In this document: piece by piece, positions 24,905-56,688 of the stretch
Layout of the letters: every line of letters starts with the position of its first letter
How positions within the stretch are numbered: the stretch's first letter is position 1
Origin: Mycolicibacterium fortuitum subsp. fortuitum
GTDB lineage: Bacteria > Actinomycetota > Actinomycetes > Mycobacteriales > Mycobacteriaceae
NCBI RefSeq assembly: GCF_022179545.1
Contig: NZ_AP025518.1
Span: 1,302,001 to 1,366,000, forward strand
DNA: 64,000 nucleotides
Direction: 5' to 3'
Program-made: the position numbers and the translations under genes
The notes under the pieces: generated by a model
What the model saw: only the letters and a program-made list of their open reading frames with translations
Told to the model about the DNA's origin: nothing
Database searches by the model: none

Positions 24905-26748
24905 CAGCTACCGAGTGGCGCGGACAGGTCACCGATGACGACGGCGATCAAGCCGGCGGCTCCGGCACGTCCGCTCTTCCGATCGACGAAAGCCTGCCCC
25001 GGCGCCGTGAGGCCCGCGAACTCCTCATGTCACTGCTGCGGCCCTACCGTTGGACGGTCGCGGTGCTGGCCCTGGTGGTCATCGTGGAAAACGCTGCCCG
25101 GCTGTCGGTTCCGATCCTGGTGCAGCGCGGCATCGACCGCGGCATCCCGCCGATCCTCGAGGGCGGCCCGGCCCGCGAGCTGATGCTCATCGTCGGCACG
25201 CTGTGCGCGGTGGTGATCGTGCAGGCGGTCAGCCGGATGTTCTTCCTGCGGCGCTCCGGCCGGATCGGCCAACGGGTGCTGCTGGAGTTGCGTCGCCGGG
25301 TCTTCCGCCATTTCGGCAGGCTCGACGTGGCCTTCCATGACCGGTATACGTCGGGGCGGGTGGTCAGCCGCTCGACCAATGATGTCGAGGCCATCCAGGA
25401 CATGCTGGAAACGGGCTTCGACAGCCTGATCACCGCGGTGCTGACGCTGTTCGGCACGGCGGTTCTACTGGTGGCGCTGGACTGGCGGCTCGGCCTGATG
25501 TGTCTGGCGGCGTTCCCGATCCTGGTCGCCCTGGTGTGGTGGTTCCGCAACGAGTCCGGCAAGACCTACCGGCTGGTGCGCGAGAGTGCGGCCCTGGTGA
25601 TCGTGCAGTTCGTCGAGACCATGACCGGTATCAAAGCCGTTCAGGCCTATCGGCGCGAGCCACGCAACCAGGAGATCTTCGACGACGTCGCCGACGAGTA
25701 CCGCGCCATCAACGAGAAGACCTTCAAGCTGCTGGCCATCTTCATGCCCGGGGTCAAGCTGGTCGGCAACCTGACCACCGGTGTGGTGCTGCTCTACGGC
25801 GGCTACCGGGTGCTGCACGGTGAGATGACCATCGGCACGCTGACCGCGTTCCTGCTGTACCTGCGGATGTTCTTCGAGCCGATGCAGGAGATCTCGCAGT
25901 TCTTCAACACCTTCCAGTCGGCGTCCTCGGCATTGGAGAAGCTGGCCGGAGTGCTGGCCCAGCGTCCCGCGATCGCCGATCCGGAGCAGCCGGTCTCCCT
26001 GTCGGACCCCAAGGGCGACATCGCGTTTCGCGATGTCCGATTCGAGTACACGCCCGGTCGTCCGGTGTTGCCGGGACTTGAACTCTCAGTGCCGGCCGGC
26101 CAGACGGTGGCACTGGTGGGCACCACCGGTGCGGGCAAGACCACCATCGCCAAGTTGATCGCCCGCTTCTACGACCCCACGGCCGGAACCGTGACGCTCG
26201 ATGGACTGGACCTGCGTGAGCTGGCTCAGTCCGAGTTGCGCCGCCACGTCGTGATGGTCACGCAGGAGAACTTCATGTTCTCCGGGACGGTCGCCGACAA
26301 CATCCGGTTCGGGCGCCCCGATGCCACCGATGCGCAGGTGCGCGAGGCCGCCGCGGCGGTCGGAGCGGACCACTTCATCGAGACGCTGCCCGACGGATAC
26401 GACACCGACGTGGCCAAGCGTGGGGGCCGGCTCTCGGCCGGGCAGCGTCAGCTGGTGGCGTTCGCCCGGGCGTTCCTGGCCGATCCGGCGGTGCTGATCC
26501 TGGATGAGGCGACGTCCTCACTGGACATCCCGAGTGAACGCATGGTGCAGCGCGCGTTGGAAACCGTATTGGCCGATCGCACCGCCCTGGTCATCGCACA
26601 CCGGCTCTCCACGGTGCAGATCGCCGACCGGGTGCTGGTGCTCGAGCACGGCCGCATCATCGAGGACGGCGCACCGGCGGAGTTGATCGGCCGCACCGGC
26701 GGTGCCTACGCGGCGCTGCACCGGGCCTGGGTGGACTCGCTGGCCTGA
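24901..26748 (+). CDS. ABC half-exporter 3 (catalytic partner)
   Basis: 615 aa. Six membrane helices after a polar N-terminus of about 40 residues; NBD with Walker A GTTGAGKT (407-414), signature LSAGQRQLVAFARAF, Walker B VLILDEATSSLD and IAHRLST. The second Gly of the LSGGQ signature is Ala, a change often found in one half of heterodimeric exporters. Paired with half-exporter 2 it would give one complete and one degenerate ATP site. Substrate unknown; drug or lipid efflux is the usual role. Confidence 0.9.
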   Translation: MTATEWRGQVTDDDGDQAGGSGTSALPIDESLPRRREARELLMSLLRPYRWTVAVLALVVIVENAARLSVPILVQRGIDRGIPPILEGGPARELMLIVGTLCAVVIVQAVSRMFFLRRSGRIGQRVLLELRRRVFRHFGRLDVAFHDRYTSGRVVSRSTNDVEAIQDMLETGFDSLITAVLTLFGTAVLLVALDWRLGLMCLAAFPILVALVWWFRNESGKTYRLVRESAALVIVQFVETMTGIKAVQAYRREPRNQEIFDDVADEYRAINEKTFKLLAIFMPGVKLVGNLTTGVVLLYGGYRVLHGEMTIGTLTAFLLYLRMFFEPMQEISQFFNTFQSASSALEKLAGVLAQRPAIADPEQPVSLSDPKGDIAFRDVRFEYTPGRPVLPGLELSVPAGQTVALVGTTGAGKTTIAKLIARFYDPTAGTVTLDGLDLRELAQSELRRHVVMVTQENFMFSGTVADNIRFGRPDATDAQVREAAAAVGADHFIETLPDGYDTDVAKRGGRLSAGQRQLVAFARAFLADPAVLILDEATSSLDIPSERMVQRALETVLADRTALVIAHRLSTVQIADRVLVLEHGRIIEDGAPAELIGRTGGAYAALHRAWVDSLA

Positions 26749-35119: not shown

Positions 35120-35527
35120 ATGGTGAGCATGTCGGCCGGACAAGCCTGCGGTGTGCTCGGGCGGCGGATGTGTGCGCTGCTGGCCGTGGGTTCGGCGGGT
35201 CTGCACGTGGTGATGTTGGGCGCGAGCGCCAATCCGGTGGCCGCCGCGGTGCTCGCGGTGATGATCGTGGGTTGCCTGTATTGCGCGGGCCATCTGTGGC
35301 GGCGGGGCACGTCCGGGGTCTGGTGCACGATCGCGTTGATGAGCCTGGCGATGATCGCCCTGCACACTCCGATGCCTACACATCATCACGGCATGGCGGC
35401 TCCCGTCCACACCTCGACAATGATGTCGACCGCGACGCTGTTGGCTCTGCTCGAGGTGCTCATCGCCGCGGCGGTGCTCACCGTCCGCACTCGCAACCGC
35501 TCGGTGATCAGCCTGCCGGCGGGGTGA
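35120..35527 (+). CDS. Small polytopic membrane protein with His/Met-rich loop
   Basis: 135 aa from ATG 35120 (an ATG three codons in is also possible). About four hydrophobic segments are seen, with a loop between the third and fourth reading [13 protein letters not shown], rich in His and Met. Such loops often bind Cu or other soft metals, but no named family is recognised. The start lies 92 bp from the divergent asparaginase gene, and the 3' end overlaps the convergent VOC gene by 20 bp. Confidence 0.65.
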
Positions 35528-36344
35528 ACTGGCTCAGGACCAGCCGAGCACCCTGTGGGTCCTGGATCAGTGCGGTGTTCGCCCATTCGGTGTCGGCGCT
35601 GGAAAGCACGGCGGCCCCGAGCTTTTCGGCGAGTTCCGCGGAGTCGTCCCGGCTGGCCACGGCGAACACCACCTGCCAGTGCTCTTGCTGCTGTTCGTCT
35701 TTCAGCTGCCCGGTCCAGCCGATCGCGTCGGAGAATCCGGGCGGGGTACTGCCGGAGGCGTGACGGTTCTTGATGTCAGGGTCGACGGTAGCTGCCAGGT
35801 GATCGCCGTATCCGGGCCGGCGGATCATCGTCGCGGCGCCGGCCCCGTCGAATTCCCAGCCGAACAAGGACTCGTAGAACCTCGCCGCGGCCTGCGGATC
35901 GCTGGTCTGCAAATTGCTGAAGTTCCAGGTCCCGGGAACATTGACCAGTTGGGCACCGAGACGCCGCCGCGGCTGCCAGAGCTTGAAGTGGGCGCCACGC
36001 GGATCGACACAACCGGCCTGGCGCCCACCGGGTCCCGCGTCGACCGGCCCGGTGATGACCGTCCCGCCGCCGTCCGTCACCGCGGCGGCCGTGGCATCGG
36101 CATCGGCCACCGCGACATAGGTGTTCCACACGATCTCGTCGCCGGACTGTGCGGATGCGATCGCTGCCACGTCCTGTCCTTCCAGCGTGGCGATCAGATA
36201 ACTGTCCTCGGCATCCTCGGGCAGCACGTCCTCGAACGTCCAGCCGAACAACCGACCGTAAAAGTCTTGGGCGGCAGCGACATCCTGCTGGTCGGTGTCC
36301 ACCCAGCAGGGCACCCCGGGCGGATAGATCCGTGACTCGGTCAT
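35508..36344 (-). CDS. Two-domain VOC/glyoxalase-like protein
   Basis: 278 aa from ATG 36344; the open frame continues into mgtA and is not coding there. Two VOC modules are visible, at about 8-125 (GVPCWVDTDQQDVAAAQDFYGRLFGWTFEDV ... DPRGAHFKLWQPR) and 140-270 (GTWNFSNLQTSDPQAAARFYESLFGWEFD ... [12 protein letters not shown]). This double arrangement is common in actinobacterial resistance-like VOC proteins. Substrate and metal are unknown. Confidence 0.88.
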   Translation of the reverse strand: MTESRIYPPGVPCWVDTDQQDVAAAQDFYGRLFGWTFEDVLPEDAEDSYLIATLEGQDVAAIASAQSGDEIVWNTYVAVADADATAAAVTDGGGTVITGPVDAGPGGRQAGCVDPRGAHFKLWQPRRRLGAQLVNVPGTWNFSNLQTSDPQAAARFYESLFGWEFDGAGAATMIRRPGYGDHLAATVDPDIKNRHASGSTPPGFSDAIGWTGQLKDEQQQEHWQVVFAVASRDDSAELAEKLGAAVLSSADTEWANTALIQDPQGARLVLSQFTPPAG

Positions 36345-36388
36345 CTGCCCATCGTCGCACCCACCACGCGCACGCCACGGTTCTATGT

Positions 36389-39070
36389 TCAGAACCACTG
36401 ACCGAACTTGCGGATATAGATGGTCTTCATGGTCTGGGCGACAACGCAGTAGGACACCAACGTCGCGGCCAGCCAGCCGAAGTACTGCCACGGCAGCGGC
36501 TGCAATCCGACGGCCGCGCCCAGCGGGGAGAACGGGATCAGGGTCCCGGCCACGCAGACCACCCCGGTGGTCAGCAGCACCGGCAACGCCGCCGTGCTCT
36601 GGATGAACGGGATCTTCCGGGTGCGCAGCATGTGCACGACCAGGGTCTGCGACAGCAGGCTTTCGACGAACCAGCCCGATTGGAACAACGATTGCATCTC
36701 GGGTGAGTTGGCCGCGAAGACGTACCACATGACCGCGAAGGTGGTGATGTCGAAAATCGAGGACGTCGGCCCCATCCAGATCATGAATCGGCCGATGTTT
36801 CCGGCATCCCACTTCCGTGGCTTGAGCAGAAACTCTCTGTCCATGCGGTCCCACGGCAGGGCCAGCTGAGAGATGTCGTACAACAGGTTCTGGATCAGCA
36901 GGTGGATCGCCAGCATGGGCAGGAACGGGATGAAGGCGCTGGCCACCAACACCGAGAACACGTTGCCGAAGTTCGAGCTGGCGGTCATGTTCAGGTACTT
37001 GATGATGTTGCCGAAGGTCTCGCGGCCCTTGACCACGCCCTCTTCGAGCACCATCAAGCTCTTCTCCAGCAGGATGATGTCAGCCGATTCCTTGGCGATG
37101 TCGGTGCCGGTGTCCACCGATATGCCCACATCCGCATCGCGCAGTGCCGGTGCGTCGTTGATGCCGTCGCCCAGGAAACCGACGGTGTGTCCGTTGGCCT
37201 GCAGTGCCCGCAGCACGCGCGACTTCTGCAGCGGCGTCAGCTTCGCGAACACGGTCGTCTGGTCGACGACGCCTCGGAGTTCGCCGTCGTCGAGCCCGTC
37301 GATCTCGGGTCCCAGGACGGGCTGCCCCGGATCGAGTCCCACCTCAGCGCAGATCTTGGTCGTGACGACTTCGTTGTCACCGGTGAGGACCTTCACGGTG
37401 ACGCCGTGTTCGGCCAGTGCCGTGAGGGCCGGTGCGGCCGTTTCCTTGGGCGGATCGAGAAAGGTGAGGAAGCCGTGGACGACGAGATCGCGCTCGTCCT
37501 CGATGCGGTAGCGGTGGGTGCGCTGGATGCGCGGGATCTCGCGGGTGGCCACCAACAACACCCGGAACCCCTCGCGGTTGTAGTCGCGGGCAGTCGCGGC
37601 CAGCGTCTCGCGGTCGGCAGCGGTGAGCGGCCGCACCGCGGTGCCGTCCCACACCTGGCTGGATACGGCGAGCATCTCCTCGACCGCGCCTTTGCAGACC
37701 AGCAGGTGATTGCGGTCGAGGTCGGCGACGACGACGGACAGCCGGCGTCGCTCGAAGTCGAAAGGAAGTTCATCGACCTTGCGGTAGGTCGACGCGGCCA
37801 GCAACGCCTCGGGTGACCCTTCGGCGAAGTGCAGGACAGCGCGGTCCATCAGATTCTTGACGCCGCTCTGGTGAAAGCTGTTGAGCCAGGCCAGGGTCAG
37901 CACGTTGTCGTCGCGGTCGCGGCGGATATCCGTGTGATGCTCGAGGATGATCCGGTCTTGGGTGAGCGTGCCGGTCTTGTCGGTGCACAGCACATCCATC
38001 GCGCCGAAGTTCTGGATCGCGTTCAGGCGCTTGACCACGACCTTGCGACGTGACAACGCGACAGCGCCTTTGGCCAGGTTGGACGACACGATCATCGGCA
38101 GCATTTCGGGGGTGAGCCCTACCGCGACCGCGAGCGCGAACAGGAAGGCCGCGGGCCAGTCGCCCTTGGTGAAGCCGTTGATCAGCAACACGATCGGCAC
38201 CATCACCAACATGAAGCGGATCAGCAGCCAGCTCACGCTGTTGACCCCACGGTCGAAGGCTGTCTCGGCGCGAGAGCCCACGATCTCCTTGGCCAGCGAC
38301 CCGAAATAGGTGTCTGCGCCTGTCGAGACGACGACGGCGGTGGCGGTGCCGCTCACCACATTGGTACCCATGAAGCAGATGCCGGACAGATCGAGCGGGC
38401 CGGTCTCGTCGTCGGTGATCGCGGTGTCGTACTTCTCGACCGGCAGGGCCTCGCCGGTCAGCGCCGCCTGGCTGACGAACAGGTCGCGAGAATCGAGCAG
38501 GCGGATGTCGGCCGGGATCATGTCGCCTGCCGACAGGTGCACGATGTCGCCGGTGACGACCTGGGCCATCGGGATCTCCATGAGTTCCGGCGTGGCATCC
38601 GGGCTGGCCCGGCGTCGCACCGTCGCGGTGGTGCGCACCATCGCCTTGAGCGTCTCGGCCGCCTTGCCCGAGCGGTACTCCTGCCAGAACCGCAGCAGGG
38701 CGCTGAGCGCGACCATGGTGACGATGATCAAAACGCCGGTGTAGTCCGCGCCCTGTCCGGCGCGCAGCGGAAGGTAGATGTCGGTCACCGAGCTGATGGC
38801 GGCCAGCACCACCAGGACCGCGATGAAGGGGTTCTGGAAGGCCTGCAGGAACTGGAGGACCGCCGGCGGTGCCTGGTCGTGGGCGACCTCGTTGGGGCCG
38901 TCGACGGCGAGGCGTTGGGCGGCGTCCTCGACGGTCAGCCCGTCGTGATGACCTCTGACGTTCGTCAGCGTGACCTCGACGTCGTTGCGGGCTTCAGCGG
39001 CCGCGCGCACAGAAAGGCGGTCGGCGGCTTTGGCGGGTGTCAGCGTGGCTGGTGCGACAGCGTTGTTCAT
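36389..39070 (-). CDS. mgtA: Mg2+-transporting P-type ATPase
   Basis: 893 aa from ATG 39070 with GGAG eight bases upstream. A P3B-type ATPase: phosphorylation site DKTGTLTQD (D364), the actuator TGEALPVEK loop, hinge GDGINDAPALRDADVGISVDTGTDIAKESADIILLEKSL, and about ten membrane helices with the FQNPFIAVL start and QTLVVHMLRTRKIPF near the end, as in MgtA/MgtB. It imports Mg2+. Its leader of about 740 nt begins with an M-box riboswitch and holds two small ORFs. An alternative TTG start at 39106 and an out-of-frame GTG at 39113, four bases from a strong AGGAGG, complicate initiation. Confidence 0.93.
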   Translation of the reverse strand: MNNAVAPATLTPAKAADRLSVRAAAEARNDVEVTLTNVRGHHDGLTVEDAAQRLAVDGPNEVAHDQAPPAVLQFLQAFQNPFIAVLVVLAAISSVTDIYLPLRAGQGADYTGVLIIVTMVALSALLRFWQEYRSGKAAETLKAMVRTTATVRRRASPDATPELMEIPMAQVVTGDIVHLSAGDMIPADIRLLDSRDLFVSQAALTGEALPVEKYDTAITDDETGPLDLSGICFMGTNVVSGTATAVVVSTGADTYFGSLAKEIVGSRAETAFDRGVNSVSWLLIRFMLVMVPIVLLINGFTKGDWPAAFLFALAVAVGLTPEMLPMIVSSNLAKGAVALSRRKVVVKRLNAIQNFGAMDVLCTDKTGTLTQDRIILEHHTDIRRDRDDNVLTLAWLNSFHQSGVKNLMDRAVLHFAEGSPEALLAASTYRKVDELPFDFERRRLSVVVADLDRNHLLVCKGAVEEMLAVSSQVWDGTAVRPLTAADRETLAATARDYNREGFRVLLVATREIPRIQRTHRYRIEDERDLVVHGFLTFLDPPKETAAPALTALAEHGVTVKVLTGDNEVVTTKICAEVGLDPGQPVLGPEIDGLDDGELRGVVDQTTVFAKLTPLQKSRVLRALQANGHTVGFLGDGINDAPALRDADVGISVDTGTDIAKESADIILLEKSLMVLEEGVVKGRETFGNIIKYLNMTASSNFGNVFSVLVASAFIPFLPMLAIHLLIQNLLYDISQLALPWDRMDREFLLKPRKWDAGNIGRFMIWMGPTSSIFDITTFAVMWYVFAANSPEMQSLFQSGWFVESLLSQTLVVHMLRTRKIPFIQSTAALPVLLTTGVVCVAGTLIPFSPLGAAVGLQPLPWQYFGWLAATLVSYCVVAQTMKTIYIRKFGQWF

Positions 39071-47164: not shown

Positions 47165-49657
47165 ATGACGACGATCACTGTCACTGGTCTCACCGATGCC
47201 GAGGTGGCCCAGCGGGTAGCCGAGGGTAAGACCAACGACGTCCCGACGCGGGCGGCACGCAGCATTTCCGAGATCGTCCGCGGCAATGTGTTCACCCGCA
47301 TCAACGCGATCCTGGGTGTGCTGTTTCTGATCGTGATGTCCACCGGGTCGGTGATCAACGGCGCGTTCGGGCTGTTGATCATCGCCAACAGTGCCATCGG
47401 CATCATCCAGGAGATCCGCGCCAAGCGGACCCTCGACAAGCTGGCCATCGTCGGGCAGGCCAAGCCCACCGTGCGCCGGGCATCCGGTAGCCGCGACGTT
47501 CTGCCCAGCGAGGTTGTGCTCGACGACATCATCGAACTGGGCCCGGGCGATCAGATCGTGGTGGACGGCGAGATCATCGAGGATTCCAACCTCGAGGTCG
47601 ACGAGTCGTTGTTGACCGGTGAAGCCGATCCCATCGTGAAAACCGCGGGCGATGCGGTGATGTCGGGCAGTTTCGTCGTCGCCGGCTCCGGTGCCTACCG
47701 GGCCACCAAGGTGGGGCACGAGGCGTACGCCGCCAAGCTCGCCGAGGAGGCGTCCAAGTTCACCCTGGTGAAATCCGAACTTCGCAACGGCATCAACAAG
47801 ATCCTGCAGTTCATCACCTATCTGCTGGTGCCTGCCGGCCTGCTCACCATCTATACGCAGCTGTTCACCACGGATCCGCGCATCCTGGATTCCCTCAAGC
47901 AGACCTACCGCGACATCGTTGCCAACGAGGGTGGTTGGCGAGAGTCGCTGGGAATCATCATGAGTCAGATCTTCACCACCGATGCGGTGTGGCACGAGCC
48001 GGTGCTGCGCATGGTGGGTGCCTTGGTGCCAATGGTTCCCGAAGGCCTGGTGCTGATGACCTCGATCGCATTTGCGGTCGGGGTGGTGCGACTGGGCCGG
48101 CGTCAGTGTCTGGTCAACGAGCTGCCGGCGATCGAGGGCTTGGCCCGGGTCGACGTGGTGTGTGCCGACAAGACGGGCACCCTGACCGAAAACGGCATGC
48201 GGGTAAGCGATCTGAAGGCGTGCGACGGGAGTGCGACGACCGAGGTCGCGTCGGCACTCGCGCAGCTGGCCGCCGATGATGCCCGGCCGAACGCCAGCAT
48301 GCTTGCCATCGCCGAAGCCTTCGCCACGCCACCGGGCTGGAAGGCCACCGCGACGGCTCCGTTCAAGTCGGCCACGAAGTGGAGCGGCGCGTCGTACGGC
48401 GAGCACGGCAACTGGGTGATCGGCGCCCCGGATGTGCTGCTGGACTCCAGTTCGCCAGTGGCGGAGCAGGCCGAGAAGATCGGCGCCCAAGGGCTGCGGG
48501 TGCTGCTGATTGGATCTTCCGATCGGGCCGTCAACGCACCGGATGCCCCGGGCGCCGTCACCCCTGTGGCATTGGTGGTGCTGGAGCAGCGCATCCGGCC
48601 TGATGCCGGCGACACACTTGAATACTTTGCTTCCCAGCATGTTTCGGTCAAGGTGATCTCCGGCGACAATGCCGTGTCGGTGGGTGCGGTGGCCGGCAAG
48701 CTCGGACTGCACGGCGAGACGATGGACGCCAGGAAGTTGCCCCACGAGCCTGATCAGCTGGCCGAGACGCTGGACGAGTACACCACGTTCGGCCGGGTGC
48801 GTCCGGACCAGAAGCGCGCCATGGTGCACGCACTGCAGTCCCGCGGTCACACGGTGGCCATGACCGGTGACGGAGTCAACGACGTGCTGGCCCTCAAAGA
48901 CGCCGACATCGGTGTCGCGATGGGTTCGGGCAGTTCGGCCTCGCGAGCGGTGGCCCAGATCGTGTTGCTGGACAACAAGTTCGCCACCTTGCCCTATGTG
49001 GTCGGCGAGGGCCGGCGGGTGATCGGCAACATCGAGCGGGTCTCGAACCTGTTCCTCACCAAGACCGTGTACTCGGTGCTGCTGGCGGTGTTGGTGGGAT
49101 TGGCGGGTCTGTCCTCCAAGTGGTTCGGTACCGATCCGCTGTTGTTCCCGTTCCAGCCGATCCACGTCACCATCGCGGCCTGGTTCACCATCGGTATCCC
49201 GGCGTTCATCCTCTCGCTCGCGCCCAACAACGAGCGCGCGCACACGGGTTTCGTGCGGCGGGTGATGACAGCGGCGCTGCCCTCGGGTCTTGTGGTCGGC
49301 ACCGTCACATTCATCTCCTACCTGGTGGCCTATCAAGGTCGGGAAGCCTCGCTGACCGAGCAGACCCAGGCCTCGACGGCCGCGCTGATCACGTTGTTGA
49401 TGTCCTCGCTGTGGGTGCTGTCGGTGGTGGCCCGGCCGTATGAGTGGTGGCGGGTGTGCCTGGTCGTGCTTTCAGGGTTGGCGTATGTGCTGATCTTTTG
49501 TTTGCCGCTGGCTCAGCGCCTGTTCATGCTGGATCCGTCGAATCTCAAGGTCACCGGCGTTGCGCTGGGCATTGGCCTGGTCGGAGCCGCGTTGATCGAG
49601 GTGCTGTGGTGGGCGCAGGGCAGGGTGTTGGGCGAGAAGCGCCAGTTGTGGAGATAG
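47165..49657 (+). CDS. ctpE: Ca2+-type P-type ATPase CtpE
   Basis: 830 aa. Phosphorylation motif [10 protein letters not shown] (D335), actuator loop LLTGEADPI, hinge [38 protein letters not shown], about ten membrane helices and [22 protein letters not shown] in helix 4. It matches Rv0908, known as a Ca2+ importer needed under Ca2+ limitation. ATG 47165 lies 66 bp after the metallo-beta-lactamase-fold gene. Confidence 0.94.
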
Positions 49658-49716
49658 CTGGCAGAGGGAAGAATGTCGGGGGTTCGGTTGAAAATCGAGA
49701 ACGATAGGGTGGGCTG

Positions 49717-49896
49717 ATGGGATTCCTGGACAAGGCCAAGGACCTTCTGTCGCAGAACGCCGACAAGGTCGAGCAGGCCATCGAGAAGGCCGGCGACATC
49801 GTCGACGAGAAGACTCAGGGCAAGTACTCGGGCGTGGTCGACAAGGCACAGGAAGCGGCGAAGAACGCCATCAACAAGGAAGAACCGCAGCAGTAG
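49717..49896 (+). CDS. Rv0909-like small antitoxin-type protein
   Basis: 59 aa, ATG 49717 to TAG 49894-49896. A charged helical protein beginning MGFLDKAKDLLSQNADKVEQ, with an amphipathic repeat of the Lys/Ala/Glu type, as in Rv0909, reported as the antitoxin partner of the SRPBCC protein Rv0910. The next gene starts three bases after its stop. Confidence 0.88.
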   Translation: MGFLDKAKDLLSQNADKVEQAIEKAGDIVDEKTQGKYSGVVDKAQEAAKNAINKEEPQQ

Positions 49897-49899
49897 CTC

Positions 49900-50349
49900 A
49901 TGGCCAAATTGTCTGTCTCCGTCGAAGTTCCGTTGCCGCCGGAGAAGGCGTGGGAGTACGCCTCTGATCTGTCCCGGTACGACGAGTGGCTCAGCATCCA
50001 CCGGGCCTGGCGGTCGAAGTTGCCCGAAACCCTGGAAAAGGGCACGGTGATCGACTCGATCGTCGAGGTCAAGGGCATGTTGAACCGCGTGAAGTGGACG
50101 CTGGTGAACTACAAGCCGCCGCAGTCGTTGACCCTCAACGGCGACGGTCGTGGCGGGGTGAAGGTCAAGCTGATCGGAAAGATTACGCCGGCCGCCGTTG
50201 ACGGTGGAGACGGTGCGAAGGTCTCTTTCGACGTGCATCTGGGTGGGCCCGCGCTGTTCGGGCCGATCGGCATGGTGGTCGCCGCCGCGCTCAAGGGTGA
50301 TATCCAGCAGTCGCTGAACAAGTTCAAGGAGCTCTACGCGTCGTCGTAG
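49900..50349 (+). CDS. Rv0910-like SRPBCC-fold protein
   Basis: 149 aa. The START/SRPBCC beginning AKLSVSVEVPLPPEKAWEYASDLSRYDEWLSIH is followed by a curved-sheet pattern and a C-terminal helix (ALKGDIQQSLNKFKELY). It matches Rv0910, described as the toxin of a two-gene module; a lipid-binding role is equally possible for this fold. Three bases separate its stop from the convergent 142-aa gene, which marks the edge of the conserved block. Confidence 0.88.
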   Translation: MAKLSVSVEVPLPPEKAWEYASDLSRYDEWLSIHRAWRSKLPETLEKGTVIDSIVEVKGMLNRVKWTLVNYKPPQSLTLNGDGRGGVKVKLIGKITPAAVDGGDGAKVSFDVHLGGPALFGPIGMVVAAALKGDIQQSLNKFKELYASS

Positions 50350-50352
50350 TTT

Positions 50353-50781
50353 CTACGGGCTCTGCTGTTGTTGCTGGGCTGACTCACGTGCTTCTCGTTC
50401 GTCGTGGACTCGCACCAGCTCACGGAAACCGATCCGGTGGTATTTGGGTACCGGCTGGATGCCCCAGTCGTCCTGCGCGGTGTCCTTGCCCTCGGCTCCC
50501 TCGGGCGGCCCGAACGCCGGGTACGGGACCTTGCATTCGAGGGTGTCGTCGGAATAGCGAACCTTGAGCAGTTCACTGCAGATCTCGGTCAGGCTCAAGG
50601 TGGGGTAGCCGTAGTAGACCGCCATGAACGGCAGGGTGAAGGCGCCCTCGACGACGAGGGCGACCAGGCACACCAGCACCGCACGCTTGATCCACTTGTG
50701 CATGCGCGCGTAGTAGGGCGTGGTGCCGGGCGGCAGGTCCTCGGACTTCTCGTCTTCGGTGGCTTCAGGTGTGGTTGTCAC
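50353..50781 (-). CDS. 142-aa single-pass membrane protein of the AAA+/vWA locus
   Basis: GTG 50781 with GAGGAG upstream. One membrane helix (about 34-56, [27 protein letters not shown]) is followed by an outward domain with two Cys ([21 protein letters not shown]), a Trp and two His, and a Gln-rich end. I do not recognise a family. It is the last gene of the leftward operon, 19 bp after the polytopic protein, and is presumably a subunit of the same complex. Confidence 0.75.
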
Positions 50782-50800
50782 AGTCGCTCCTCGAATGTGT

Positions 50801-51502
50801 TCAGTCGGAGAAGATCTCGCGGTTCACCGTGTGCAGGTACGGGATCGCGAGGAACGGGGTGATGTAGAAGATGTCGTAGAGCCACCACCCGATGACCGGG
50901 AACACGACGCCCGCGTAACGCACGTCGGCGTACATCGTCATGTTGAACACGTACAGACACCAGATGAGCACGCCCATCCAGCAGGTGATGATCATCCACT
51001 GGTGGCCCCAGCGCTTCATCTGCAGAAAGCCGATCGCTGCGGCGCACCGCATCGCGAAGACGGTGAGGATCATGCCGAACACCATGGACTTCTCGCCCGG
51101 CCCGGCTGCGCCTCCGATCCACAGTTCGTTGTAGTGCCAGAAGTACCCGGCGTCGAACATGGCGCCCCAGCCGACCATCAACACCCGGTTGATCAGCGTG
51201 TGGTTGGCGACAAGGTCGAGGGCCCACCCGAGGCTGTTGAGCATGCCGTCGATCAGCACGAGATACCCGATGAGCGTGACGATCATCGGCCGGACCGAAT
51301 ACCCCGCCCGCAGTGCCTGGCGCTGTAACCACACGCCGCGCATGAAGACGGGGAAACCGATGAGGCCAGGTGCCCACATGCCCATCAGCGCCGCACCGAC
51401 GATCATCCACTTGTCGGCCCGCCGCTGTGCCAGCCGGGACTGTTCGTGGTGTTCCTCGAGGTTGAGCGAACCCTCTGCCGGGACGGATGTCGCGACCTTC
51501 AC
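50801..51502 (-). CDS. Polytopic membrane protein A of the AAA+/vWA locus
   Basis: 233 aa from GTG 51502, whose GTGA overlaps the stop of the 43-aa microprotein; longer frames exist but would overlap that gene. About six hydrophobic segments. Conserved polar residues inside or beside helices stand out: [13 protein letters not shown] (Asp, His, Glu), [25 protein letters not shown] and [13 protein letters not shown]. These are plausible metal ligands. It is strongly similar to the protein at 54783-55514. I recognise no named family. Confidence 0.8.
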
Positions 51503-51630
51503 AGCTCCCACCAACCTCGGGTGAACGACATGTACAGCTGGATTCCGAACATCGCCAGCAGGTATCCGTAGATGACGATCTGCAGGACGATGAGGGCTTT
51601 CTTGCGGTTGCGTTCCTTCTGATCCACCAT
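51499..51630 (-). CDS. 43-aa single-pass microprotein
   Basis: ATG 51630, AAGGAA ten bases upstream, TGA 51499-51501. A basic start (KERNRKK) is followed by one helix (ALIVLQIVIYGYLLAMFGIQLY) and an aromatic tail (RGWWEL). It lies between the AAA+ gene and polytopic protein A and overlaps the latter's start, so it should be made with it, perhaps as a small subunit like those in respiratory complexes. Confidence 0.72.
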   Translation of the reverse strand: MVDQKERNRKKALIVLQIVIYGYLLAMFGIQLYMSFTRGWWEL

Positions 51631-51645
51631 GGTCGCGATTCCTTC

Positions 51646-52446
51646 CTAGGCGCTTGAGCTGTCGGCATCGGCTCCCGAGAGACACGCGGAAGCGACCTCC
51701 CGCAGCCCTTCGGTGATGGCGCCGTCGCTGGACAGCGGGGCGAGGACACATGCCTCTGCGGCTTCGAGTTCCGTTGCACCGGCGGCGATCAGGTGTGCCG
51801 CCGTGACGAGTACCCGAGTGGAGGGCGGTTCGAAGTGGAATGCCTCGTCCGCGGTTCGGATCGCGCTGGCGCACCGGACCAGCCGCTGTGCGGTGGGCAG
51901 CCCGACGCCCGCCTCGGCGACGATCACCTCGGCCTCACGCTCGGGCGGCAGGTACCGCATCGGCAGCGTGACGAAACGCTGCCGGAAGGACGGTTTGAGC
52001 TCTTTGAGCGAGCTGCGGTAGGCGGGGTTATAGGAGCACACCAGCATGAAAGTCTCTGGCGCATGGACGACTTCACTGGCGCGATCCAGATAGAGCGTGC
52101 GCCTGTGGTCGGTGAGTGAGTGCAGGACGGCCAACGAATCGTGACGCGCCTCGACAACCTCGTCGAGGTAGCAGATCGCCCCGGCCTTGACGGCTCGCGT
52201 GAGGGGCCCGTCGGTCCAGACCACGTCCCCGCCGGTGACCATGAACCGTCCGACGAGGTCCGAGCTGGTCAGGTCGTCGTGGCAGCTGATGGTGACGACC
52301 GGACGGCTGAGCAGCAGTCCCATGTGCTCGACCAAGCGGGTCTTGCCGCATCCTGTCGGGCCGGTGAGCATCACCGGCAGGCGCTGGCGGAAGGCCTGTT
52401 CGAACAGCTGAACTTCGTTGGCATTGGCGTAATACGTGTCGGTCAT
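51646..52446 (-). CDS. MoxR-type AAA+ ATPase (NorQ/CbbQ-like)
   Basis: 266 aa. Walker A GPTGCGKT (29-36), Walker B CYLDE (92-96), a sensor in LVCSYNP, and an arginine-rich KPSFRQRFVTLPM as in NorQ/CbbQ/NirQ proteins. In known systems these work with a vWA partner to load metal or remodel an enzyme (NorQ/NorD for nitric oxide reductase, CbbQ/CbbO for Rubisco). ATG 52446 overlaps the vWA stop, so the pair is coupled. No nor or cbb genes are near; the neighbouring membrane proteins are the likely clients. Confidence 0.9.
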   Translation of the reverse strand: MTDTYYANANEVQLFEQAFRQRLPVMLTGPTGCGKTRLVEHMGLLLSRPVVTISCHDDLTSSDLVGRFMVTGGDVVWTDGPLTRAVKAGAICYLDEVVEARHDSLAVLHSLTDHRRTLYLDRASEVVHAPETFMLVCSYNPAYRSSLKELKPSFRQRFVTLPMRYLPPEREAEVIVAEAGVGLPTAQRLVRCASAIRTADEAFHFEPPSTRVLVTAAHLIAAGATELEAAEACVLAPLSSDGAITEGLREVASACLSGADADSSSA

Positions 52447-53984
52447 GCGGATACCAGCTCCCGGTGGACATGGGCAAGAACGCGGGGTAGTTCTTCGACC
52501 CGGCGGATGCGTTGGGACCGTTTGGGTCCGAACACTTCGGGCAGCGGATCGACGCGGACGGGGCCGACGCCGAGGTAGTACATGGAGACGCCCGCGTCGT
52601 TGGCTTCCTCCACGGCGTGGGCGGCATCAGCCCAGGCGTAGCGGCCCTCGTAGCCTTCGTCCGAGATCAGGCCATCACCGATGACGATGAGCAACCTGCG
52701 CTCCGAAGGCTGCGCGAGCAGGCGGCTGGTCATATGCCGCAGCGGCGCACCGAGTCGGGTGTAGCCGCCGGTGGACAGACCCAGACTGCCGGGTGGGACG
52801 AAACGGCGGTCCGCGAAGTCCTTGAGGCAGCTGACTTCCACGCGATGGCGGGTGTTGCCGGTGAACGTGAATATGCCGTGGCGTTCCCGCGCCGAGGTCA
52901 TCGCGCGGGACAGGGCGTCAGCGCAGGCGAGCTCGAGTTTGAAGATCCGGCCCCCGTGCACACCCAGCGACGAGCTGCCGTCGAGGAGCAGCGCGGTTGT
53001 CACGTCGCGGCTGGCGGGTAACAGTTCACGGAAGAGGCGCGGTTCGACCGCCTCACCGGTGGTCAGGTCCATGAAGTGGTTGACGTACTGGTCGACGTCG
53101 AGGTCGGAGCCGTCTTCGAGCCGATTCTTCATGGCCCGGTGGGTGTTCTCCTCGAACCACTTCCGGACGTCGACGGTAACTGTGCCCGGCTTTCGGTCGC
53201 GGCTGGAGCGGGTCTGCTCGAGAACCGCGACGTGGTCCGGCATGAAGCTCTTCGTCCATGCGTTCCATTCCGGGTAGGGGATTCCCGGCCGGTGGTCGGG
53301 GGTGATGTCGAGGTCGTTGTCCTGAGGCCGGCTGGGTGGCGGAAGGTTCGAGTTGCGGACGCCCCCGTCCCCGCCGGCAGGGACGGAATGTGGTGCCGGT
53401 GAACGCTTCTGGTTGGTGGTCCACGGCAGCCGCCCGAACGTGCGGCGCAGCTTGTCGGACAGGCCCTGCGGCTGGGTGTATGCCCGCGGCAGGCTGCCGA
53501 GCAGCGGGTCGATGGAGAACTGCTGTGAGGTACGCGCCAGGGCGAAGGCCCGGTTCAGCATCTCCTCGGCGTCCATGTTCGCGGCGGCCGGTTCCAGGTG
53601 CGGAAGCGTCGAGCGAAGGTCAGCCAGTAGTCCGGGCCAGTTCTCGGCGACCCAGCCAAGCGCGACGCCGGCCTCGACGAGGGTGAGTGCGGCCAGTTCG
53701 CAGGTCGAGAGCTCGTTGAGCCGGTAGTCGAGGATGCGTTCTTTGGATGGCGAGCACTGCAGTGCCACACCGCATGTCAGTGTTCGCCGCGTCCAGTCAC
53801 GACGCGGTGGATAGGGCACGTGCACGACGTCGAGCAGGGAACTCAGACCGAAGCCGCGGTGCTGGCCGCTGACCAGGCGGGCGCCGGTGCGGCGCTGGCC
53901 ACTCAACGCCACGGCGGTGACGGCGCAACTGCGCTCGGTCGCCATGGCGCGGGCTTCGTCGAGTTCGGGCATCTGCTGCGTCAC
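52443..53984 (-). CDS. vWA-domain protein (NorD/CbbO-like)
   Basis: 513 aa from GTG 53984. A helical N-terminal region is followed by a Pro-rich linker (about 215-250) and a C-terminal vWA domain with MIDAS DGSSS (D335, S337, S339), a conserved TGGYTRLGAPLRHM (second MIDAS Thr) and IVIGDGLISDEGYEG. This layout is that of NorD/CbbO proteins that recruit a MoxR-type ATPase to its target. Start lies four bases after the 35-aa microprotein stop. Confidence 0.88.
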   Translation of the reverse strand: MTQQMPELDEARAMATERSCAVTAVALSGQRRTGARLVSGQHRGFGLSSLLDVVHVPYPPRRDWTRRTLTCGVALQCSPSKERILDYRLNELSTCELAALTLVEAGVALGWVAENWPGLLADLRSTLPHLEPAAANMDAEEMLNRAFALARTSQQFSIDPLLGSLPRAYTQPQGLSDKLRRTFGRLPWTTNQKRSPAPHSVPAGGDGGVRNSNLPPPSRPQDNDLDITPDHRPGIPYPEWNAWTKSFMPDHVAVLEQTRSSRDRKPGTVTVDVRKWFEENTHRAMKNRLEDGSDLDVDQYVNHFMDLTTGEAVEPRLFRELLPASRDVTTALLLDGSSSLGVHGGRIFKLELACADALSRAMTSARERHGIFTFTGNTRHRVEVSCLKDFADRRFVPPGSLGLSTGGYTRLGAPLRHMTSRLLAQPSERRLLIVIGDGLISDEGYEGRYAWADAAHAVEEANDAGVSMYYLGVGPVRVDPLPEVFGPKRSQRIRRVEELPRVLAHVHRELVSA

Positions 53985-53988
53985 GTCG

Positions 53989-54096
53989 TCAGAAGGTGCC
54001 GATGTTGGAGAACATCCAGTACCAGAACCAGATGATCAAACCGGTGCCGCCCCAGGCGGCCACATAGCGGAGTATCTCCCAGATCCAGCCGGCCAC
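53989..54096 (-). CDS. 35-aa tryptophan-rich single-pass microprotein
   Basis: GTG 54096 preceded by GAGGAG, TGA 53989-53991. Six of 35 residues are Trp (W4, W6, W15, W23, W25, W27), in AAWGGTGLIIWFWYWMF, which forms one membrane helix. It is placed between the TetR and vWA genes with gaps of only a few bases. Probably a membrane subunit or assembly peptide of the locus. Confidence 0.65.
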   Translation of the reverse strand: MAGWIWEILRYVAAWGGTGLIIWFWYWMFSNIGTF

Positions 54097-54097
54097 G

Positions 54098-54127
54098 TCA
54101 GTGCTCCTCGCAGAAGGGGTGTTTCAT
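54098..54127 (-). CDS. Possible 9-codon ORF between tetR and the 35-aa gene
   Basis: ATG 54127 overlaps the TetR stop (ATGA) and TGA 54098-54100 ends one base before the next GTG. The peptide would be MKHPFCEEH. It could simply couple translation of the TetR gene to the microprotein; real coding is uncertain. Confidence 0.25.
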   Translation of the reverse strand: MKHPFCEEH

Positions 54128-54726
54128 CGGACCTCCAGTCCTCGTCGTGCGGTGATGACCAAGTTGGCCAGCATCGCGTCGCGGTGCCGGCTGTTGGCGG
54201 TGGTGGTCAGGACGCCGTAGATCCCAAGGAGGAAGAACGCGGCGCTGTAGAAGGCGTCGACTTCGGGATGCACCTCGCCGTCGCCGCGGGCACGCTCGAT
54301 CTCGCGGACGAGCAGCACGATCATCGGGTGGTCGCTCCATTCGTCCTTGGTGGGACGTGTCGGCGAGAAGTGCAGCGCGAGAAGTTCTTTGAACAGGAGC
54401 GGTCCGAAGCGTTGCTCCAGGCTGCTTATCAGCCGGACGAGCTCGGTCAACGCTGACGCGAGATCGTGCGGGCTGTCGAGGAAATGCGTGAATTCGGCTG
54501 CCATGCGTGTCTCTTCGCGCCTTTCCAGTTCCAGCAGGACGTGCTCCTTGCTCGGGAAGTGGAAGAAGAAGGTTCCGTGGGCTACGCCTGCGACGTCGAC
54601 GATCGCACCGACGTCCGCCCCGGCCATGCCCGACGCCCGGAACTCGGCGATGGCCGCGCCGAGTATCCGTTCCCGCGTCTGCAGTCGGCGCAATTCCCGC
54701 GCCGACTGCTTGATCTGTGGGGTCAT
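54124..54726 (-). CDS. TetR family regulator of the AAA+/vWA locus
   Basis: 200 aa. HTH at about 15-60 (RERILGAAIAEFRASGMAGADVGAIVDVAGVAHGTFFFHFPSKEHVLLELE). The C-terminal ligand domain includes a YSAAFFLLGIYGVLTTTA helix. It lies between the two polytopic membrane genes on the same strand, and a 32-bp palindrome sits directly upstream. It is the likely switch for the whole leftward operon. Confidence 0.9.
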   Translation of the reverse strand: MTPQIKQSARELRRLQTRERILGAAIAEFRASGMAGADVGAIVDVAGVAHGTFFFHFPSKEHVLLELERREETRMAAEFTHFLDSPHDLASALTELVRLISSLEQRFGPLLFKELLALHFSPTRPTKDEWSDHPMIVLLVREIERARGDGEVHPEVDAFYSAAFFLLGIYGVLTTTANSRHRDAMLANLVITARRGLEVR

Positions 54727-54740
54727 GGTCCGCTCATTTC

Positions 54741-54772
54741 TAACTCAGTAACTGATTTCAGTCAATGAGTTA
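54741..54772. promoter_or_regulatory. Nested palindrome upstream of tetR
   Basis: Outer arms TAACTCA (54741-54747) and TGAGTTA (54766-54772), inner arms ACTGA (54751-54755) and TCAGT (54758-54762), all centred at 54756.5. The AGTCAATGA half recurs at 55528-55536 near the other membrane gene, so both may bind the same TetR. Confidence 0.7.
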
Positions 54773-54782
54773 AGTCATTCAT

Positions 54783-55514
54783 CTAATCGGAGAAGATCTC
54801 GCGGTTGACCGAATGCAGGTAGGGGATCGCGAGGAACGGAGTGATGTAGAAGATGTCGTAGAGCCACCACCCGACGACCGGCAGCACGACCCCGGCGAAC
54901 CGGACGTCGGCGTACATCGTCATGTTGAACACGTACAGGCACCAGATGACGATCCCCATCCAGCAGGTGATGATCATCCACTGGTGGCCCCATCTCTTCA
55001 TCTGAAGGAAGCCGATGCCCGCGGCGATCCGCATGGTGAAGACGGTGAGGATCATGCCGACTTCCATCGCCTTTTCGCCTGGGCCGGCGGCTCCGCCGAT
55101 CCACAGCTCGTTGTAGTGCCAGAAGTATCCGGCGTCGAACATTGCGCCCCAGCCGTTCAACAGGATTCGGGCGAGGATGGTGTGATTGGCGGCAACGTCG
55201 AGGGCCCAGCCGACGGTGTTGATCGCGGCGTCGATGATGACCAGATAGCCGATCAGTGTGACCAGCATCGGCCGGACGGACAGTCCGTCGCGCTGCGCCT
55301 TGCGAAGCAGCCAGACGCCCCGGAGGAACAGGGGCAGGCCGAAGATGCCGAGGGTCGCGGTGCCGATGAGCAGGCTGCCGGAGATGAGCCATTTGTCGGC
55401 CTGGCGCTGTGCTCGATGCGAGGCGTCCAGGTGTTCGTCGAGTCCGCCGGCCGAGGGGCGTGCGACCTCGGCCCCGCTGCTGCCGCGCCTCAGATTGAAC
55501 GTTGGCATGTTCAT
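54783..55514 (-). CDS. Polytopic membrane protein B of the AAA+/vWA locus
   Basis: 243 aa from ATG 55514 (ATG 55508 also possible). Paralogue of the protein at 50801-51502: the C-terminal 150 residues are nearly the same, including [46 protein letters not shown] and [13 protein letters not shown], while the first 60 residues differ. About six membrane helices. A TATAGT box lies about eight bases before the ATG within a palindrome, so transcription may be near-leaderless and repressible. Family not recognised. Confidence 0.8.
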   Translation of the reverse strand: MNMPTFNLRRGSSGAEVARPSAGGLDEHLDASHRAQRQADKWLISGSLLIGTATLGIFGLPLFLRGVWLLRKAQRDGLSVRPMLVTLIGYLVIIDAAINTVGWALDVAANHTILARILLNGWGAMFDAGYFWHYNELWIGGAAGPGEKAMEVGMILTVFTMRIAAGIGFLQMKRWGHQWMIITCWMGIVIWCLYVFNMTMYADVRFAGVVLPVVGWWLYDIFYITPFLAIPYLHSVNREIFSD

Positions 55515-55520
55515 GCAGGC

Positions 55521-55532
55521 TGACTATAGTCA
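55521..55532. promoter_or_regulatory. Perfect palindrome over the promoter of membrane protein B
   Basis: TGACTATAGTCA (55521-55532) contains TATAGT on both strands. It directly precedes the ATG of the leftward gene and faces the rightward DapB-fold gene. Candidate TetR site. Confidence 0.5.
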
Positions 55533-55614
55533 ATGAAATTGGGTGGTCAATCGGCTACTTCGACGGCGCCGAAAGGTCTCACCACCATTCGGGGGAACTG
55601 GAGCAGGTTCGACG

Positions 55615-56688
55615 ATGCGCAGAGTGGTCCAGTTCTCCACCGGCAATGTCGGTAGGCATTCGCTGGCGGCGATCATCCGTAGGCCCGACCTGACGTTGGT
55701 GGGTGTCCATGCCGCCGGCCCGGACAAGATCGGCCGTGACGCTGCTGAACTATGTGGGCATGGCGAGCCGACGGGCGTCATCGCCACGGACGACATCGAT
55801 GCGCTCATCGCCCTGGCGCCGGACTGCGTGGTCTACACGGCGTTGGGTGAGACGCGGCCGATGGAGGCGATCGAGCAGATGTCGCGGTTCCTGGCCGCTG
55901 GGATCAACGTCGTCGGCACCTCCATGGTGTGGTTGGTGACACCGCACCAGGCCGACGATTGGTTGCGGGTACCGCTTGAGGAGGCGTGCTCGGTCGGGAA
56001 CTCCTCGCTGTACGTCAACGGCATCGACCCCGGATACTCGGGGGACACCGCGGTATACGCTGCGCTCAGTCTGGTCACCCGCGCCGAGTCGGTGACGGTC
56101 AAGGAGATCTTCGACTACGGCAACTACGACGACTACGAATACACCGGCACCGCCATGGGTTTCGGCACCACTCCGGACGACGAGCTGCCGATGGCATTCC
56201 AGCCGGGAGTGATCACGGCGATGTTCGGCGGATTGGTGCGCAATCTAGCCCATCATCTCGGCGTGGAGCTCGACGAGGTTCGTCAGCGGTTCGAGCCGTG
56301 GTACGCCACCGAGCGCATCGAGTGCACGATGATGACCGTCGAACCAGGGCAATTGGCCGGCACCCGATTCGCCGCCGAAGGCATCCGCGGCGGCGTTCCG
56401 GTCATCACTGTCGAGCACACCACCCGGCTCACCCCCGCGGCGGCGCCGGACTGGGAGTATCCGCCCGAGGGCCAGTCCGGCGTGCACAAGGTGATCGTGG
56501 AGGGCGAGCCACGCATCGAGCTGAGCACTGAGCTGTCCCATCCGACGCTCGACGTGACCGACGCCGGATGCTTGTCCACCGCGGCGCGCGTCGTGAACGC
56601 GATCGACTGGGTGTGTGACGCTCCGGCGGGCCTGGTTGCCGCCGAGGACATCCCGCCGACCGCGCTGATCCGTGGCCTGATGTGGTGA
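55615..56688 (+). CDS. DapB-fold NAD(P)H-dependent dehydrogenase
   Basis: 357 aa from ATG 55615. Rossmann N-terminus VVQFSTGNVGRHSLAAIIRRPDLTLVGVHA, a conserved VVYTALGETRP, and a C-terminal domain with NGIDPGYSGDTAVY, matching the amine dehydrogenase/2,4-diaminopentanoate dehydrogenase-like group that shares the dihydrodipicolinate reductase fold. It is common in mycobacterial catabolic clusters with unknown substrates. It starts the catabolic block to the right of the AAA+/vWA locus. Confidence 0.85.
   Translation: MRRVVQFSTGNVGRHSLAAIIRRPDLTLVGVHAAGPDKIGRDAAELCGHGEPTGVIATDDIDALIALAPDCVVYTALGETRPMEAIEQMSRFLAAGINVVGTSMVWLVTPHQADDWLRVPLEEACSVGNSSLYVNGIDPGYSGDTAVYAALSLVTRAESVTVKEIFDYGNYDDYEYTGTAMGFGTTPDDELPMAFQPGVITAMFGGLVRNLAHHLGVELDEVRQRFEPWYATERIECTMMTVEPGQLAGTRFAAEGIRGGVPVITVEHTTRLTPAAAPDWEYPPEGQSGVHKVIVEGEPRIELSTELSHPTLDVTDAGCLSTAARVVNAIDWVCDAPAGLVAAEDIPPTALIRGLMW

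Follow-up and report, generated by a model that had tools for sequence, protein, structure and literature searches.

A conserved mycobacterial gene set with a predicted EXPERA-like membrane protein, small membrane proteins and a NorQ/NorD-type AAA+/vWA pair

Positions 50353-55514 of a 64,000-nucleotide stretch of the Mycolicibacterium fortuitum subsp. fortuitum genome (contig NZ_AP025518.1, positions 1,302,001 to 1,366,000; the whole stretch is called the window here) carry eight genes, each encoded on the minus strand; they run EXPA, TetR, mp35, vWA, AAA+, mp43, EXPB and 142 (Table 1). EXP denotes a polytopic membrane protein present as two copies, EXPA and EXPB, mp35 and mp43 are microproteins, and 142 is a 142-aa protein. 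The original prediction, made from the sequence alone, had given coordinates and the DGSSS and GPTGCGKT motifs, all of which were borne out along with the two microproteins. The second copy it described is indeed EXPB, which is 75% identical to EXPA over residues 20-243. Its description of genes fused by overlaps or gaps of a few bases fits part of the core, with 4-base overlaps at EXPB/mp43 and AAA+/vWA and gaps of 4 bases (vWA/mp35), 15 bases (mp43/AAA+) and 19 bases (142/EXPB), and fits TetR and EXPA less well (27 bases at mp35/TetR, 56 at TetR/EXPA). No Pfam match was obtained for mp35 or mp43, and neither a Pfam nor an NCBIfam match for 142.

Table 1. Features of the EXP locus (positions in the window)
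Feature	Position	Strand	Description
EXPA	54783..55514	-	polytopic membrane protein, 243 aa; EXPERA-like helical bundle predicted; models of pLDDT (predicted local distance difference test) 86.1 and 88.0, with structural matches
TetR-family regulator	54124..54726	-	200 aa; Pfam TetR_N, E 2.3e-10
mp35	53989..54096	-	single-pass, 35 aa, GTG start; C-terminal motif FWYW-x5-GTF
NorD-type vWA protein	52443..53984	-	513 aa; metal-ion-dependent adhesion site (MIDAS) DGSSS; PDB NorD 9qhd_G
NorQ/CbbQ-type AAA+ ATPase	51646..52446	-	266 aa; Walker A GPTGCGKT; Pfam AAA_5, CbbQ_C; PDB NorQ 9qh4_A
mp43	51499..51630	-	single-pass, 43 aa
EXPB	50801..51502	-	second EXP copy; GTG start overlapping mp43 stop
142	50353..50781	-	single-pass, 142 aa; conserved two-cysteine segment beyond the membrane stretch
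Palindrome TGACTATAGTCA	55521..55532	.	directly upstream of EXPA
Divergent gene	55543..56688	+	2,4-diaminopentanoate dehydrogenase C-terminal domain, Pfam PF19328, E 5.3e-15

Related loci were the best 80 of 344 relatives from a scan of named genome contigs. Of these, 79 bore the name Mycobacterium, Mycolicibacterium, Mycolicibacter or Mycobacteriaceae and the remaining one Aldersonia, the nearest being [Mycobacterium] fortunisiensis and Mycolicibacterium peregrinum (95% identity). Two copies of EXP, 142, AAA+, vWA, mp35 and mp43 were present together in 77/80 loci, in support of conservation of the neighbourhood across Mycobacteriaceae; contig ends cut through the three incomplete loci. Both microproteins evolve as proteins, the median proportions of synonymous and nonsynonymous differences (pS/pN) being 0.47/0.047 for mp35 (79/80 loci) and 0.48/0.079 for mp43 (77/80 loci) when loci without an ungapped match were dropped. 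Since all six components occur in 77/80 loci and the microproteins evolve as proteins, the gene set is more than a chance assembly. In one locus (L034), EXPA was separated and the remaining genes were inverted. EXP was found in 32/301 genomes of the taxonomic family (7/31 genera), in 9/396 genomes of a phylum-wide draw and, within the window's own genus, in 19 genomes (the window's included) and not in 10 among those listed. At E <= 0.001, the 6.4-Mb genome yielded no EXP match other than EXPA and EXPB.

We determined co-occurrence in 51 genomes, comprising the 31 other EXP-positive genomes of the family and 20 of the 269 EXP-negative ones (those listed). The 142 gene was present in 31/31 EXP-positive and 0/20 EXP-negative genomes, although the matched stretch contained one stop codon in three of the 31 (G878, G631 and G634). 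An orthologous vWA gene (53-93% identity) showed the same distribution (31/31 versus 0/20), and 6/20 EXP-negative genomes had only a vWA paralogue of 33% identity or less.

Other genera of the family supplied 13 loci, of which nine had a single EXP, three had two and one was cut; the nine single-EXP loci share the order mp35-vWA-AAA+-mp43-EXP-142. Thus, a duplication is the probable origin of the additional upstream copy. In the tree, EXPB fell within a 15-row clade (support 100/99) that also contains the single EXP of one genome (G870), and the tandem EXP copies of two genera (L138 and L145) fell elsewhere.

In two genomes, G825 (L196) and G790 (L151), the full operon is accompanied by a second locus (L148 and L149, respectively) with mp35, mp43, EXP and 142 only. 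Both second loci are surrounded by genes for AMP-binding ligases and short-chain dehydrogenases/reductases (SDRs), together with a GntR regulator and a hydrolase at L148, and an enoyl-coenzyme A (CoA) hydratase and a zinc alcohol dehydrogenase at L149. The Mycobacterium branderi plasmid pJCM12687 (L168:11624-12717) carries a diverged EXP (30.6% identity), preceded by open frames of 40 and 82 aa with hydrophobic stretches, as judged by eye, and its surroundings hold genes for a GMC oxidoreductase, an aldehyde dehydrogenase, a Rieske protein, a thiolase and an acyl-CoA dehydrogenase; no AAA+ or vWA gene is annotated in that region. By eye, the 82-aa frame resembles an mp35-mp43 fusion. The stand-alone loci and the plasmid EXP without an annotated pair therefore indicate that the two parts are separable: judged by gene content, the structural unit is EXP with mp35, mp43 and 142, and the maturation unit is vWA with AAA+. 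In the distant genome G121, mp35, EXP, vWA and AAA+ were detected in that order by tblastn; inspection by eye added a 142-like gene ahead of mp35 and, between mp35 and EXP, an mp43-like gene, neither with a significant match. Synteny, co-occurrence and stand-alone structural loci together support the multi-subunit membrane system that had been predicted.

The AAA+ protein aligned with NorQ (9qh4_A) over 251 residues without a gap (E 1.6e-75) and with CbbQ (6l1q_C; E 8e-65), and it scored above the Pfam cut-offs for AAA_5 (122.8 bits) and CbbQ_C (75.7 bits), which places it among the NorQ/CbbQ-type MoxR AAA+ proteins. Alignment of the vWA protein with NorD (9qhd_G; E 4.7e-30) spanned residues 230-513, covering the MIDAS and the preceding YPEW...PDHV stretch, and did not extend to residues 1-229; its score against Pfam VWA was 23.7 (cut-off 23.8). 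With a C-terminal vWA domain and a DxSxS-type MIDAS matching NorD, this is a NorD-type partner. The proposed NorQ/NorD-type identity of the pair was thereby upheld, as was the statement that no known client is present: none of the operon products is a known NorQD client, and NorB and NorC had no match among the eight gene products in Pfam and NCBIfam searches (mp35 by Pfam only). The operon thus differs from the nor cluster of Paracoccus denitrificans, which serves cytochrome c nitric oxide reductase (cNOR), in lacking NorB/NorC, in the unmatched 229 N-terminal residues of vWA, and in a client candidate of another predicted fold with one nearly invariant His. The rubisco activase CbbQO has an AAA+ of the same CbbQ/NorQ subfamily; it acts on a soluble client, whereas no rubisco is found among the operon products. 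As in nor with norE and norF, the pair genes here adjoin membrane-protein genes, and in NorQD a finger of the vWA protein inserts into the AAA+ pore, the proposal being that ATP-driven rotation then stretches a linker, so that cNOR opens to receive iron (available part of PMC13036017).

EXP is predicted to be an EXPERA-like helical bundle resembling a human sterol-processing enzyme. The fold relation of the EXPA model to EBP/TMEM97 was detectable, and its best structural matches include the sigma-2 receptor with cholesterol. EXPA and EXPB matched no Pfam family at E <= 1, so neither the EXPERA (PF05241) nor the AveC (PF17198) profile was matched. Weak Pfam EBP matches were obtained for 16/91 aligned EXP family members (best 8.1e-5), the G121 EXP reached 19.2 bits against PF05241 (cut-off 25.7), and some relatives are named 'Emopamil-binding protein' or 'EXPERA domain' in public records. 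The protein, originally called unrecognised, is thus so only in part, in that the window copies have no Pfam match. The catalytic residues of EBP are His76-Glu80-Glu122 (PMC6549186). EXPA helix 83-108, which lies over the EBP His76 region by aligned range ends, has no His but contains D95, N99 and D106, and by the same measure the invariant E147 is near the expected position of Glu122. Identity with EBP sterol isomerase was rejected because the catalytic His76 has no His counterpart in this helix. EXP further differs from EBP and TMEM97/sigma-2 receptor in its extra N-terminal helices, its constant small partner proteins and its AAA+/vWA pair.

A separate EXPERA-like protein occurs in 3/121 genomes of the same family (L104, L105 and L106); one exceeds the Pfam cut-off, and the L104 protein has a match to human EBP (E 1.6e-5). 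In Mycobacterium sp. UM_CSW, one genomic island holds three EBP-like hypothetical proteins, a TetR and a probable cholesterol dehydrogenase (available part of PMC4818103), and PF05241, with six transmembrane regions on average, is recorded in Mycobacterium, Mycolicibacterium, Microbacterium and Nocardia (available part of PMC9903846); neither the island nor these entries have been shown to be the EXP operon.

The genome of the window has three NorQ-type genes, and the other two, outside the window, lie near AveC-like (PF17198) polytopic proteins (L169, G000:C1:268000-281000; L170, 4324000-4338000). At L169 the AveC-like gene directly overlaps; at L170, which also carries cytochrome P450, aldehyde dehydrogenase and SDR genes, an open reading frame (ORF) for a periplasmic binding protein intervenes between the AveC-like and AAA+ genes. 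In six further genomes, 10/10 paralogous vWA genes were at most 3.5 kb from an AveC-like gene, so that all 12 paralogous NorQD-type pairs checked (7 genomes) have one within 3.5 kb. Conversely, 10/22 AveC-like genes were away from any listed vWA gene, two of the genomes concerned, G620 and G642, being outside the vWA search. A QDPxxN motif was seen in 15/22 AveC-like loci. Since EXP and AveC-like genes both stand beside such pairs, NorQD-type pairs in these bacteria, as judged from gene neighbourhoods, accompany at least two different types of polytopic membrane protein. The likeness is one of arrangement, a polytopic protein clustered with a NorQ/NorD-type pair in the same genome, whereas EXP showed no significant sequence relation to the AveC-like proteins (hhalign p 0.079). 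AveC is a spirocyclase/dehydratase (available part of PMC13303154). Among the literature matches listed, mostly outside subscription journals, none linked a NorQ/NorD pair with a protein of the EXPERA or AveC type, nor was any a functional study of an AveC-like role in mycobacteria.

The palindrome TGACTATAGTCA is likely a TetR operator, with the TetR protein of the locus as its reader. In 62/80 loci, TGACTNNAGTCA lies upstream of the EXPA match at a distance of no more than 330 bp; of the other 18, 15 have it elsewhere in the locus and three have none. In the 1.58 Mb of the 80 loci it occurs at 135 sites, whereas simple base shuffles give 0.2 on average. Exact copies were present in two of the nine single-EXP loci (L137 and L147); none occurred at L138 or L145 (tandem copies), at the satellite loci L148, L149 and L168 or at the locus of G121. 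By its distribution, therefore, the palindrome is mainly a companion of loci with two EXP copies. TTGAC, palindrome and start codon are closely spaced in that order in many loci, and thus the site probably overlaps the promoter. Two further TGACTNNAGTCA sites are present in the genome (G000:C1 4550332-4550343 and 4866562-4866573; control count 2).

The original prediction had also pointed to adjacent CoA ligases, SDRs and an oxygenase, and from these to an oxidative enzyme. CoA ligases and an SDR are indeed present. The sole oxygenase candidate among 20 neighbouring ORFs is a glyoxalase/dioxygenase-superfamily protein (35508-36854) about 13.5 kb away, and no P450 haem motif was found in the window; genes with such a motif (three families, by motif) are near the operon in 68/80 loci, mostly downstream. 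Nor was the oxidative assignment supported: a motif scan found no CxxCH or CxxC in the five small or membrane proteins of the operon, and the closest parallels among characterised proteins, EBP and AveC, carry out non-redox reactions. The divergent gene has a homologue of at least 50% identity in 61/80 loci. Many relatives have P450-motif, glyoxalase-like and second dehydrogenase genes after 142; here, at 47165-50349, an SRPBCC gene, with a homologue in 13/80 loci, and a P-type ATPase gene take their place. Elsewhere in the window, a tRNA-Glu (CTC) call (26404-26494, plus strand) lies inside a long plus-strand open frame (24901-26748); either the tRNA or the frame may be spurious.

We propose, with about even confidence, that the locus encodes a four-subunit EXP membrane enzyme for a hydrophobic substrate, whose active site would be installed or restored by the NorQD-type pair and whose expression would be repressed by TetR. 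EXP, in one or two copies, would form an integral membrane complex with mp35, mp43 and 142, and its EXPERA-like helical pocket would be lined by the invariant polar residues. The substrate, probably polycyclic or terpenoid-like, would belong to CoA-linked catabolic pathways, and the TetR protein would repress the gene set via TGACTNNAGTCA until it appears. The AAA+ ring would twist the vWA protein, which would pry the EXP client open as NorQ/NorD do with nitric oxide reductase; what is installed or restored would most likely be a metal ion held by an Asp/Glu/His cluster, a metal being, by analogy, the simplest precedent for the action of the pair on EXP. CbbQO, however, is a case in which such a pair clears an obstructed active site instead, and the parallels with EBP and AveC point to chemistry without redox steps.

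Another explanation, which we consider possible but the less favoured one, is that EXP and its partners contain no metal and act as a non-redox isomerase, cyclase or dehydratase by acid-base chemistry like EBP or AveC. The pair would then remodel the complex or restore its activity, for instance by driving out product caught inside, in the way that CbbQO serves rubisco. The EXPERA-like fold, the association of 12/12 paralogous pairs with an AveC-like gene, AveC being a spirocyclase/dehydratase (available part of PMC13303154), and the absence of CxxCH/CxxC motifs all agree with it, but EXPA helix 83-108 has no His to match the EBP His76, NorQD is tied to iron insertion, and the Asp/Asn/Glu/His set of EXP is compatible with a metal. 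Catalysis might even be dispensed with. TMEM97 is considered to carry or sense lipid or sterol-like ligands, and EXP could likewise do so and supply neighbouring cytosolic enzymes and P450s, as the sigma-2 receptor match and the P450-motif, CoA-ligase and SDR genes near the set in relatives would allow; we regard this as improbable, since it would be unusual for a passive carrier to keep charged residues invariant and to have an AAA+/vWA pair of its own. MoxR/vWA-containing conflict systems have been treated in a paper (available part of PMC7159879), but that the present pair and its membrane proteins serve stress or conflict rather than metabolism is very improbable, as the pair is NorQ/NorD-like and the stand-alone structural loci lie among catabolic-type genes.

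If the proposed membrane enzyme is correct, EXP would be a new client class in addition to the few clients known so far for MoxR AAA+/vWA machines, and loci with EXP but no pair would offer a natural test of client versus chaperone parts. It would also open a bacterial route into the EXPERA fold, which is mainly known from cholesterol synthesis and the sigma-2 receptor. More tentatively, EXP may found a group of EXPERA-fold metalloenzymes with two microprotein subunits, a disulfide-capped anchor and their own NorQD machine, and together with the AveC-like pairs may represent a class, general among mycobacteria, of membrane enzymes that act on hydrophobic substrates and are matured by AAA+/vWA pairs. 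For mycobacteria, the finding points to an uncharacterised membrane step of lipid- or steroid-like metabolism, linked to AveC-like proteins.

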